Shown one piece after another: positions 16,712 to 57,743 of a stretch of DNA of 60,986 nucleotides. A program made the position numbers and the translations under genes. Source of the DNA: Desulfurococcaceae archaeon (GTDB lineage Archaea > Thermoproteota > Thermoprotei_A > Sulfolobales > Ignisphaeraceae). Each line of letters begins with the position of its first letter. Within the stretch, counting starts at the first letter, position 1. The notes beneath the pieces are model-generated. The model did no database searches. It was not told where the DNA came from and saw only the letters and a list, made by a program, of their open reading frames with translations. The stretch is taken from assembly GCA_020832925.1 (NCBI GenBank), contig JAJHRF010000005.1:1-60986 (forward strand), read 5' to 3'.

Positions 16712-17980
16712 ATTGCAAAGATAATAGTGCTAGGCGCTGGAAGAGAAGTTGGCAGAGCTGGTATATTTTTAACCCTAGAAAACGATGAGAAAGGTGTTTT
16801 GCTAGACTACGGTATAGCTTTCGATGATCAGGATAGACCTGTATTCCCTCTACATGTATCACCTTCAAAACTTAAAGCTATATTGATAACTCATTCACAC
16901 CTAGATCATATAGGTGCCGCCCCCTTATTCTATGTATCTGCAAAACCCTTAGTCATAGCGACAAAGTTAACGTTGGTTACCGGAAAGCTTATGATAGAAG
17001 ATATGATAAGGTTGTCAGGGTATTACCTTCCATATGAGTATCCGGAGCTAGTGTCTATGCTTGAGAACTCGAAAGATGTAGGTATTGGGGAGACGATAGA
17101 GGTAGAAAATCTTCAAATAGAAGTTCTTAATGCAGGACATATACCTGGTAGCTGTATGTATAGAGTACATCTTAAGAGTAAAACCGTTCTCTACAGCGGA
17201 GACGTGAACACTATAGATACAAGGCTTGTTAGAGGTGCTGATGTTGCTGGTGTAGAAGCTGAAGTGCTTATAATGGAGAGTACCTACGGCTTATTCAACC
17301 ATCCTCCGAGAAGTAGAGTTGAAGAGAAGTTCGTAGAAACTTTGAGAATGGTTCTCGAAGATGGTGGTAGCGTTCTTATACCATCATTCTCTTTAGCACG
17401 AGCTCAAGAGATTTTAGCGTTATTAGCTGAGAAAATGCCTTATGCAAACATTTACTACGACGGTATGGCTAGGGATATCATGACTATATACCTAGAGTAT
17501 AGCGAGTATATAAATAGAGTTGATCTTCTAAAAAAAGCTTACACATTATTTGATGCTGTCAAGGATTCGCAGATGAGGAAGAAGATATGCAACGAACCTG
17601 GGAACATAGTAGTTGCTCCTGCAGGTATGCTGAAAGGTGGCCCTGCCGCGTACTATATTAAGAGGCTAGGCTTCAACCCTAAGAATGCTATAGTATTGGT
17701 AAGCTTTCAGTCTCCATCAACACCTGGGAGAAAACTTCTTACAGATGGGGTACTCGAGGAAGGAGGAGGCTTCGTTAAGGCTAAGGTATTCTGGTTCGAC
17801 TTCTCAAGCCATGCAGGAGCTGACGACCTAGTTAAAGTTGTGAAATCTATTAAGAACCTTGAAAAGCTTGTGCTAATCCACGGATCTGAAGACTCTGTAT
17901 ACACCATAGGTTACCGTGTTAAAGAAGAACTAGGTATAGATTTCGTAGCCCCTGCTAATGGGGATTCCATAGCTATTTAA
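16712..17980 (+). CDS. Beta-CASP metallo-beta-lactamase RNase (aCPSF2-like), apparent ATT start
   Basis: About 422 residues. It has the metallo-beta-lactamase motif THSHLDH near residue 60, later ligands in NAGHIPGS and YSGDVN, and a beta-CASP insertion with MESTYG, ending in the SSHAGADDL and HGSED motifs. Archaeal members are 5'-3' exonucleases or endonucleases in RNA turnover. The first standard codon, GTG 16727, would remove the first beta strand. In-frame ATT 16712 restores AKIIVLGAGREVGRAG, and GGTGG lies six bases before it, while a stop codon at 16706 excludes longer forms. The stop overlaps the convergent dtdA stop by 4 bases. Confidence 0.88.
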   Translation: MAKIIVLGAGREVGRAGIFLTLENDEKGVLLDYGIAFDDQDRPVFPLHVSPSKLKAILITHSHLDHIGAAPLFYVSAKPLVIATKLTLVTGKLMIEDMIRLSGYYLPYEYPELVSMLENSKDVGIGETIEVENLQIEVLNAGHIPGSCMYRVHLKSKTVLYSGDVNTIDTRLVRGADVAGVEAEVLIMESTYGLFNHPPRSRVEEKFVETLRMVLEDGGSVLIPSFSLARAQEILALLAEKMPYANIYYDGMARDIMTIYLEYSEYINRVDLLKKAYTLFDAVKDSQMRKKICNEPGNIVVAPAGMLKGGPAAYYIKRLGFNPKNAIVLVSFQSPSTPGRKLLTDGVLEEGGGFVKAKVFWFDFSSHAGADDLVKVVKSIKNLEKLVLIHGSEDSVYTIGYRVKEELGIDFVAPANGDSIAI

Positions 17981-37967: not shown

Positions 37968-38718
37968 TCTCTCTAAGATGATACCCCACCTCGTTACAAC
38001 TGAAGACAGGTCCTTCGATACATAGAAGTTTCGTTGATGATTTTATATAGCAACTACCACAGATACCTAATCCACATTTAACCATAGTTCCTAGAGCTAC
38101 ATAAACATTGTTTCCCTTAACGTACTCACATACTTTGCTAAGCATAGCTGTCGGACCAACAGCTAGTATTATGCTGTAGGCATTTATATCGATAGACCTC
38201 AAGGCATCTAAAACAGTACCGCATATACCATAGCTACAATCTTCTGTCACTATAATTAAGCTGAATTTTTCGCTGATTTCGGGGTACAGATTCTTGAGAT
38301 TGAATAGCTCTCCTCTTTCCCTGACTCCCCATACGAGGTCGAGACGTCTATACCTAGACCTAGATATAAAGAACGGTATAGGTGCTATACCTATACCGCC
38401 TGCAAGTACAAGAATATTCTCCAGATCGTTCTCTACCACAAATCCTCTCCCCAGAGGACCTTTCAACGCTATTAAATTGCCTGGATACAGAGTTGACAGT
38501 TTTCTAGTGCCTTCACCTCTTACTTTGAACAGAAATTCTATGACATCCCTTCTTCTATACGCTATACTTAAAGGTATTTCATCTACTCGTGGTACCCAGA
38601 CCATGAAGAAGTTGAACGGTTTCACATCTTCTACTCTATACAAAGGCTTTACAGCGAGTCTATACGTATTCTCAGCTAAATTCTCTATGTAGAGTATTCT
38701 CGCTGGTATCAACGGCAT
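37954..38718 (-). CDS. pyrK: Dihydroorotate dehydrogenase electron transfer subunit
   Basis: 254 residues of the ferredoxin reductase type. An N-terminal FAD-binding beta barrel is followed by an NAD-binding domain with LAGGIGIAPI near residue 105. CGLGICGSC plus a later Cys in LLCIEGPVF bind one [2Fe-2S] cluster. It passes electrons from PyrD to NAD. It lies 5 bases behind pyrI and overlaps pyrC. Confidence 0.93.
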   Translation of the reverse strand: MPLIPARILYIENLAENTYRLAVKPLYRVEDVKPFNFFMVWVPRVDEIPLSIAYRRRDVIEFLFKVRGEGTRKLSTLYPGNLIALKGPLGRGFVVENDLENILVLAGGIGIAPIPFFISRSRYRRLDLVWGVRERGELFNLKNLYPEISEKFSLIIVTEDCSYGICGTVLDALRSIDINAYSIILAVGPTAMLSKVCEYVKGNNVYVALGTMVKCGLGICGSCYIKSSTKLLCIEGPVFSCNEVGYHLRESVDS

Positions 38719-40749: not shown

Positions 40750-41411
40750 TTAATCACCTTTTCTTTCTGCTCTTTTACAATATTTAAAGCTGTTTCTCTT
40801 GGCCTACTTGAGTATGTAATAGCTCTCCCAACGATCTCGTAATCAGCTCCTGCACATATAGCATCACCAGGCATAGCCCCCTGAGCTCCTACACCTGGAG
40901 CTAGTATCTTCATATCGACGCCTAGTCTACTCCTAACATACTTAATTACTTCAAGTCTTGTAGCAGGTGCAACTACGCCCCAGCTCTTAATGCTTCTCGC
41001 AATCTCTAAGAATTCGTCTAGGTGTTTATCTATAAACTCTTGCGATCCTCTATGCGACATAGATACAACTAGTACTAGCTTCAGATCCTCATCCTCGCAT
41101 ACTTTAGCTAGTACCTCGAGACCTTGATCAACACCTACAAAACTATGTGCTATAACAGCGTTAAAACCGTAGTTCTTCAACATCTTGGCGACGGTAGCCA
41201 TTATATCCCCTATATCAGCAAGCTTAAGATCAGCTATCAAAAGACCTTCATAATCCTTGAAGATCCCGGCTATATCTTTAACCCCTCGAGCCAATATAGC
41301 TGGCAACCCTATTTTAAAACCTTGAGCAACATCCTTCAGAACTTCAAATCTTTGAGATATCCAGAGCCTGGTATCTACGTTCGGAGGTGGATCGAGCGCC
41401 ACAATTAACAG
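40737..41411 (-). CDS. pyrF: Orotidine-5'-phosphate decarboxylase, apparent CTG start
   Basis: About 224 residues, TIM barrel. Decarboxylates OMP to UMP. The catalytic DLKLADIGD loop and the APGVGAQG phosphate loop are present. The first standard start, GTG 41402, begins at VALDPPP and cuts the first beta strand that carries the substrate-binding Asp. In-frame CTG at 41411 gives LLIVALDPPP and has GGTGA exactly six bases before it. A TGA at 41420-41418 excludes longer forms. It opens the pyr operon; a weak TATA element lies near 41450-41460. Confidence 0.9.
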   Translation of the reverse strand: MLIVALDPPPNVDTRLWISQRFEVLKDVAQGFKIGLPAILARGVKDIAGIFKDYEGLLIADLKLADIGDIMATVAKMLKNYGFNAVIAHSFVGVDQGLEVLAKVCEDEDLKLVLVVSMSHRGSQEFIDKHLDEFLEIARSIKSWGVVAPATRLEVIKYVRSRLGVDMKILAPGVGAQGAMPGDAICAGADYEIVGRAITYSSRPRETALNIVKEQKEKVIKCRG

Positions 41412-48573: not shown

Positions 48574-48897
48574 CTATCCCTCTGTTCCCTCCTCTATGAA
48601 TACTATGTTGTTAGGATTGAAACCGAACTCTTCTATTAGAATCTTTTTTATCTTAACTCTATGATCTCCTTGAATCTCTATCCTACCATTTTTGAAAGTT
48701 CCTCCAGCTGCTAACTTAGATTTTAGGTAAGAAGCCAATTTCTTGAGATCGAAAGCTTTGCTATCTATACCCTCTACCACTGTTACTACTTTCCCTAGTT
48801 TTCTCCGTTCTAACTTTATCTTCACTACCTGGGATTCTGTTTCTAGTTGTGAACATAGCTCTAGAGGTAGTCCTGCGCAGAGGTTATCTAATTTCAT
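48574..48897 (-). CDS. Translation initiation factor aIF1 (SUI1)
   Basis: 107 residues. The SUI1 fold is clear: [21 protein letters not shown] (about residues 24-44), [22 protein letters not shown] and the C-terminal ILIEEFG. It monitors start-codon choice on the small subunit, which is of interest given the non-standard starts in this window. It is divergent from rpoP. Confidence 0.93.
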
Positions 48898-56589: not shown

Positions 56590-57465
56590 CTAGAGTAGCG
56601 TTGAGTAGAAGATTATGAGTGTATACAAGGGGGCTGTGAAGGGGTCTGTGTTTATCCTTATCGTAGCTATATCGTCTCTTCTTATACCTCTTCTTGCGAG
56701 GAGTGATAGGTATTCATTAACTGTATGTTCTTCTACACTTGTGTACACCACTATATCCGGCTGTTGATGTTCTAAGCCTTTTCTCCCGATTACGTGTACA
56801 GGTATTCCTCTATCCATGAGTTCTTCTCCTGCTGCTAGAAGGGATTTGCTTACAGCTACTATCGGCACCCCCTGTCTCCTGGACTTCGTCTGGTTAACGA
56901 TGTTGAAGTACCTATCCACAAGTTCTTTTACTACGCTCTTCATATCCAGCTCTCTCTCGAACTTCTTGATCCTCGAGATTTCTCCTCTTGATAGTGTTAA
57001 AGCTAGTTTAAGCGATGAGTGTAGTACTGCAAGTCTATAGATGTCGTTATCTATATTCATGACGTAGATGTTCTGGTTATATAGCTCAAGCCTCTCTCCT
57101 AGCTTAGCTACTGTAACTGTTGGGAGTATAGCTATAGTGTCTATACCTAGCAGTGCTAACGCCTGGATAACTCTGTAGGTACAGCTAATCTCTGTAAAGC
57201 TCGCTAACAGTACTGCGTATATATCCCCAGCTACATATGGCAATACTATGTTGTAGCTGTAGTCTCCATCGAAATACACTACGTTTATCGAGGGGCTCGA
57301 TATCTTGATAGCTGAGCACAGGTGTTGGGCTAGGCCTTCCACTGTACCGCAGTAGAGAATAAATGTGGCTCCGCTTTTTGAAAAAGTTTTCGCTAAGGTT
57401 TCCGCTAAATTACTAGATATCTTCTCTGATCTGGCTACGAGATCTGATACACGTTCAAGGTCTAT
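56590..57465 (-). CDS. SIS-domain-like protein, apparent ATA start
   Basis: About 291 residues. FILYCGTVEGLAQHL resembles the first strand and glycine loop of a SIS sugar-phosphate domain, and a second Rossmann-like part follows (IVAVSKSLLAAGEEL, IPVHVIGRKG). The first standard start, GTG 57342, would begin inside that glycine loop. The frame stays open for 41 more codons to ATA 57465, which overlaps the upstream stop as ATAG and has GGTGA six bases before it. The enzyme role is not clear. Confidence 0.72.
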   Translation of the reverse strand: MDLERVSDLVARSEKISSNLAETLAKTFSKSGATFILYCGTVEGLAQHLCSAIKISSPSINVVYFDGDYSYNIVLPYVAGDIYAVLLASFTEISCTYRVIQALALLGIDTIAILPTVTVAKLGERLELYNQNIYVMNIDNDIYRLAVLHSSLKLALTLSRGEISRIKKFERELDMKSVVKELVDRYFNIVNQTKSRRQGVPIVAVSKSLLAAGEELMDRGIPVHVIGRKGLEHQQPDIVVYTSVEEHTVNEYLSLLARRGIRRDDIATIRINTDPFTAPLYTLIIFYSTLL

Positions 57466-57743
57466 CCTTCTTCACCACCGTACTCCTCTTCCCTCATGAG
57501 CTCCATGAAAAGCTCTTTGTAGTACTCCTCTCTTTCCTGCTCTATCTCTTCCTTCTTCCTCGAGTACTTCCTACCCTCGCTTACAACAGATGTTGTGAAG
57601 ACTTTTGGTTGCTGAACTGATAGCGTGTACCTAGCTGATTGTTGCTGGACTTCGTACCCACATCTACTGCACTTCAGCACTATCGAACCATCCTCTTTCC
57701 TATGGGGTGTAAGTATTCCTCCGCACTTGGGGCAGAACTGCAT
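57462..57743 (-). CDS. TFS/RpoM-like N-terminal zinc-ribbon protein
   Basis: 93 residues. MQFCPKCGGILTP and CSRCGYE form a zinc ribbon like the N-terminal ribbon of TFS and Rpb9. The second, catalytic ribbon of TFS (with its DE-containing hairpin) is missing; instead there is a charged helical tail. It is thus not a working cleavage factor by itself. GGTGT lies six bases before the ATG. It overlaps the SIS-like gene by 4 bases. Confidence 0.78.
   Translation of the reverse strand: MQFCPKCGGILTPHRKEDGSIVLKCSRCGYEVQQQSARYTLSVQQPKVFTTSVVSEGRKYSRKKEEIEQEREEYYKELFMELMREEEYGGEEG

Follow-up and report, generated by a model that had tools for sequence, protein, structure and literature searches.

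Probable initiation at AUA of a SIS-like protein gene and proposed Shine-Dalgarno-led near-cognate start codons in archaea of the Ignisphaera group

The locus analyzed here raises the question of where translation begins in a gene whose reading frame extends well upstream of its first standard start codon. The gene encodes a SIS-like protein and lies in the window, i.e., the whole stretch of 60,986 nucleotides that was analyzed, which belongs to an archaeal draft contig of the Ignisphaera group (genome in 101 contigs); the features concerned are collected in Table 1. Its upstream neighbor, here as elsewhere in the genus, is a zinc-ribbon gene, the 3′ end of which reads GGTGGTGAAGAAGGATAG. On the minus strand, the zinc-ribbon stop TAG (57464-57462) overlaps the ATA at 57465-57463 as ATAG, and GGTGA at 57476-57472 precedes this ATA by 6 nt, i.e., GGTG plus 7 nt. 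The SIS-like frame runs TGA AGA AGG ATA GAC, so that only AGA and AGG separate ATA from the upstream TGA, and the 41 codons from ATA to the GTG at 57342 contain no ATG, GTG or TTG. The initial annotation had proposed a start at ATA, 41 sense codons ahead of the first standard start, and its coordinates and counts proved to be right; the exact spacing of the layout, which it had given as GGTG-N6, is GGTG-N7.

Table 1. Coordinates of the SIS-like gene, its start region and further candidate starts in the window.
Feature	Position	Strand	Remarks
SIS-like protein gene read from ATA	56590..57465	-	291 aa + stop; N-terminal helix/strand region kept across the genus
ATA start codon, SIS-like gene (probable)	57463..57465	-	sole start candidate common to 11/11 genus genomes
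Shine-Dalgarno core GGTG	57473..57476	-	GGTGA reaches 57472; 7-nt spacer to ATA
In-frame TGA closing the SIS frame 5′ of ATA	57472..57474	-	11/11 genus genomes
First standard start GTG	57340..57342	-	rejected: inside conserved YCG-motif region, other species without it
Upstream zinc-ribbon gene (RPB9/TFS-like N-terminus)	57462..57743	-	PF02150 E = 2.5e-9; same operon
PyrF (orotidine phosphate decarboxylase) CTG start	41409..41411	-	GGTG-N7; ATG at same codon in G002 orthologue
Metallo-beta-lactamase RNase J-like gene ATT start	16712..16714	+	GGTG-N7; G009 ATG within one codon
PyrC-like dihydroorotase, possible ATC start (weak)	37977..37979	-	GGTG-N7; GTG 4 codons on

A protein search recovered SIS-like relatives in 11/11 genomes of the genus, as well as in some of the family's other genera. 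The genus set includes the window's own genome, and its members are kin and so do not represent 11 independent cases; the ten other relatives show 33–42% identity in this search. The stop overlap and the GGTGA six bases before ATA, to which the initial annotation had drawn attention in the window, recur in every one of the 11 genomes, with the overlap being ATAG in ten and ATAA in one, and the TGA of GGTGA ends the SIS frame two codons before ATA. No standard start is common to all 11 genomes at this gene; the first one varies in position by species, from codon 4 to about 40, and falls at the conserved strand in G002. Across the 11 species, the differences within codons 2–41 amount to 0.49, 0.39, and 0.66 for the first, second, and third codon positions, respectively, and the mean amino-acid identity is 34%; this variation is of the coding type, as in the remaining gene. 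Alternatively, translation could begin at a standard codon further downstream, which in the window is GTG 57342, and the protein would then lack its first 41 residues; in favor of this reading, GTG serves as a normal start in the window's genome, being the first standard start in 18 of the 50 long window ORFs. However, the position of the first standard start is not the same from species to species, and the 41-codon stretch shows conservation of the coding type, which renders this reading very improbable.

The conservation of ATA is partly tied to the last codon and the stop of the zinc-ribbon protein. In G009, the complete single-contig genome of the genus (1,875,953 bases), TGA is the stop in 21% of ORFs and A occupies the last third position in 49%; the chance of NNA-TAR in 11/11 genomes would be about 3e-5 if they were independent, which related species are not. 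A change from ATAA to ATGA, a single step that keeps the stop and gives a normal start, was found in none of the 11 genus genomes. In other genera of the family (L013, L015; G015, G011), a nearby ATG just after the stop begins the SIS-like gene.

The same 41 codons had been read initially as a helix plus the first strand of a SIS-like fold. Of this reading, the coding character is borne out by the codon-position pattern; the SIS assignment of the protein is weakly supported, with the PF01380 (SIS domain) profile matching one of nine members at E = 0.0017 and the window protein not at all. No PDB relative was found in a profile search, and no relative in a related-locus search with the SIS-like protein as the query. 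A single-sequence fold model (pLDDT 45), for which the PDB matches gave a TM below 0.3 versus the query, was disregarded as noise. Remote SIS-like relatives in other families (L017, L019, L020, L022–L024, L026) are located downstream of a methylthioadenosine phosphorylase-like gene, which they overlap, as opposed to the zinc-ribbon neighbor in Ignisphaera.

The claim that this is the third gene in 61 kb with such a layout is sound, the two others being PyrF with CTG at 41411 (-) and the RNase J-like gene with ATT at 16712 (+); both near-cognate codons are equivalent in position to the ATG of relatives, exactly for PyrF and to within one codon for the RNase J-like gene (Table 1). The PyrC-like gene, with ATC at 37979 (-), is a weaker fourth case; its G009 orthologue carries an ATC at the aligned position, followed by TTG at the next codon.

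Two further genes display the layout across genomes. In seven family genomes, the frame of the YchF-like GTPase lacks a standard start both at the aligned position and upstream of it, and the start codon appears to be ATA (G009, G011, G016), ATT (G014, G017) or ACG (G010, G001), located 7 nt after GGTG in 7/7; the first standard start lies 5 to 80 codons further in, and in G009, G010, and G001 it falls within the P-loop or past it. The other family genomes carry ATG or GTG at or near the aligned position. For the initiation factor aIF1A (L141–L158), 17 of the 18 family genomes, covering four of the five genera sampled, have ATA as the codon at the start position, 5–8 nt after GGTG. Twelve of the 17 are without a standard start upstream in frame, while the other five, including the window's own genome (G000), are ambiguous, with a standard start 3 to about 20 codons upstream. 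The same ATA is found in 9/9 named GTDB records of the Ignisphaera group, whereas in records of other families a standard start (ATG, GTG or TTG) stands at or beside that codon, except for two Pyrodictiaceae. The latter genes (L237, L238) show CTG at the start position, one of them with ATG five codons upstream. In the SIS-like, GTPase, and aIF1A genes alike, the conserved N-terminus extends past the first standard start and the frame upstream lacks one, for aIF1A in the twelve unambiguous genomes. The gene after aIF1A, RIO1 (L141–L144), has CTG as its apparent start in four Ignisphaera-group genomes, and most other RIO1 relatives have standard starts. The window's aIF1 (SUI1) gene (48619-48834, minus strand) has an apparently ordinary ATG start.

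A genome-wide count of codons preceded by GGTG covered two families, using G009 and 400 kb sampled from G035, a complete genome from another family of the order. ORFs were included when 8 or more codons lay between the in-frame stop and their first standard start, and all 4-letter motifs were scanned at spacings of 4–11. The Shine-Dalgarno signal before ATG in G009 is GGTG with a 5–9 nt spacer, peaking at 6–7. Before ATA, GGTG-N7 was the best of all motif/spacing tests, occurring 11 times versus 1.8 expected in G009 (top of 1,579 tests, p = 6.5e-7), 5 times versus 0.7 in G035 (top of 664 tests, p = 4e-4), and 19 times versus 3.3 in the pooled count, which includes three SIS orthologues (top of 1,876 tests, p = 1.9e-10). 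In the pool, the same arrangement was enriched before ATT (8 versus 2.0 expected, p = 8e-4) and CTG (5 versus 0.4, p = 8e-5), and weakly before ACG (2 versus 0.3, p = 0.03), and enrichment was absent for ATC, AAG, AGG, GTA, GTT, TTA, and other control codons. At its native spacing, the Shine-Dalgarno motif is specific to codons one base from AUG. The signal is resolved by GGTG alone at a fixed spacing; a looser scan accepting GGTG, AGGT or GAGG gave 39 ATA cases versus 30.5, diluted by chance matches.

The ATA cases of G009 comprise aIF1A, the YchF-like GTPase, an archaeal NusA-like protein, glycogen synthase, and a molybdopterin oxidoreductase; its ATT cases are GatC and a Trm5-like protein, and its CTG cases are PurQ, RIO1, and GatD. 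G035 contributes ThiI and a glycerate kinase family protein (ATA), a TtuA-like protein (ATT), and a DUF1156-like protein (CTG). The names Trm5, DUF1156, and RIO1 are those that we presume from sequence recognition. In the NCBIfam models, position 2 falls at residue 3 of aIF-1A, PurQ, and TtuA, for which the next standard start is at residues 14, 25, and 36, respectively; at residue 5 of the GTPase, whose model covers residues 5–405 and whose next standard start is at residue 16; and at residue 9 of ThiI, with the next standard start at residue 10. The relaxed choice of start codons, suggested at first as a trait of this organism, is hence upheld and widened to the family and to a genome of another family. 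As a separate observation, the frame of an archaeosine tRNA-guanine transglycosylase at G009 86745 (L031:6745) begins with GTT directly after a stop. Position 1 of the family profile falls at residue 3 of this frame, whose next standard start is at residue 36, and the genome-wide count shows no enrichment of GTT.

Taken as a whole, the sequence evidence makes it highly likely that the SIS-like gene is translated from AUA, as an instance of general Shine-Dalgarno-led near-cognate initiation with the ordinary initiator tRNA. In the proposed mechanism, GGTGA would hold a 30S subunit, whether freshly recruited or still present at the overlapping stop codon, and this subunit would place the ordinary initiator tRNA (anticodon CAU) on AUA, with one third-position C-A mismatch being tolerated. 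Group-wide, initiation led by the Shine-Dalgarno motif would occur 7 nt after GGTG, most often at AUA, then at AUU and CUG, and sometimes at ACG. We infer that AUA would be used in vivo with methionine as the first residue and a weak or regulated output. A single, ordinary initiator tRNA with the anticodon CAU was identified in G009. Since AUA, AUU, CUG, and ACG each differ from AUG by one base, near-cognate pairing of the normal initiator is the simplest account. Because aIF1A and the GTPase share the layout without an overlap, overlap with an upstream stop is not required, and the idea that such starts occur only in coupled genes was rejected; at the SIS-like gene, the stop overlap may add reinitiation. 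A family-specific change of the machinery was likewise rejected as the cause, given the same ATA signal in another family and the ordinary initiator tRNA.

Archaea make agmatidine to read AUA, and a special initiator could be envisaged, i.e., a second initiator tRNA (UAU) or agmatidine modification of C34 on part of the pool, which would explain why AUA is the favored non-standard codon and why AUC is not seen. Nonetheless, no tRNA with the anticodon UAU was found in G009, which has its one ordinary initiator, and a special initiator would not read ATT, CTG, and ACG, which are also used; there is little to recommend it over pairing of the ordinary initiator with near-cognate codons. Slightly less probable still is a fusion that carries the SIS-like part and arises by programmed -1 frameshifting where the zinc-ribbon gene ends. 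The genes do overlap, with the SIS frame at -1 relative to the zinc-ribbon frame, and -1 frameshifting is known in archaea (PMC8211752). However, no slippery heptamer precedes the zinc-ribbon stop, the junction being GAAGARACATAR in most species and GAAGAAGGATAG in the window; GGTG-N7-ATA also occurs at aIF1A and the GTPase, where no upstream gene overlaps; and the family relatives in G015 and G011 carry ATG close after the stop. A sequencing or assembly error, which the initial annotation had named as grounds for refutation and which a draft genome of 101 contigs might invite, or a decaying gene, is excluded, since ATA, spacing, and overlap are kept in every member of the genus, where the same junction is common to 11 genomes, one of them single-contig, with the gene intact in all, and neither an error nor a one-off explains them.

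Start codons of this kind have precedents on the genes of initiation factors. Bacterial infC, encoding IF3, starts with AUU and is autoregulated (Butler et al. 1987; Brombach and Pon 1987, cited in PMC9845219), and changing AUU to AUG abolishes the autocontrol (Butler et al. 1987, cited in the same paper). Like infC, aIF1A presents a conserved non-AUG, near-cognate start on the gene of a factor involved in start selection; it differs in being archaeal, in encoding an IF1 homologue, in employing AUA, and in that unrelated genes use AUA too. The chloroplast infA gene (IF1) of Chlorella starts with UUG, as described in PMC9845219, and is similar in that an IF1/IF1A gene is held at a weak start codon, although UUG is a standard alternative start and AUA is not. 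The SIS-like junction resembles ATGA-type termination-reinitiation overlaps, in which the start shares bases with the stop and the Shine-Dalgarno motif lies inside the upstream gene, but its start is ATA (ATAG/ATAA), and the layout works without overlap as well. Finally, the aIF1 of Sulfolobus disfavors non-canonical start codons in vitro (Hasenohrl et al. 2006, 2009, cited in PMC8211752). That work concerns the same initiation machinery and accounts for the expected weakness of a near-cognate start, whereas the genes that seem to bear such starts here are natural ones; it follows that these starts should be weak and responsive to factor levels.

The conserved ATA at the SIS-like gene and aIF1A suggests that a weak start may be kept on purpose there, and feedback of aIF1A on start-codon stringency, in the manner of infC, is plausible by analogy. 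The conservation of the aIF1A ATA across the family is the strongest single lead for autoregulation. More speculatively, and with doubts prevailing, aIF1A of Ignisphaera-group archaea might use its conserved AUA to adjust both its own abundance and how strictly start codons are chosen. In that case, genes such as the SIS-like one would retain AUA because their output thereby tracks this stringency, near-cognate-start genes would form a regulon of aIF1A, and the system would be an independently evolved archaeal counterpart of infC.

To our knowledge, AUA has only very rarely been described as a natural start codon in cellular prokaryotes. The literature searched, which was mostly open-access and does not prove their absence, contained no account of archaeal AUA starts; the gene selection of PMC5397173 includes annotated AUA starts, of which the passages available from that source give no account. 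If AUA initiation holds true, the start sites of conserved genes in Ignisphaera-group archaea need redrawing. Gene finders normally accept only ATG, GTG, and TTG, and genes that start with ATA would therefore be truncated or missed in annotations. It would also imply that the start-decoding machinery of archaea, which is close to that of eukaryotes, accepts near-cognate codons under Shine-Dalgarno guidance, and in the case of aIF1A, archaeal feedback on start-codon stringency, as in bacteria and eukaryotes, would become directly testable.
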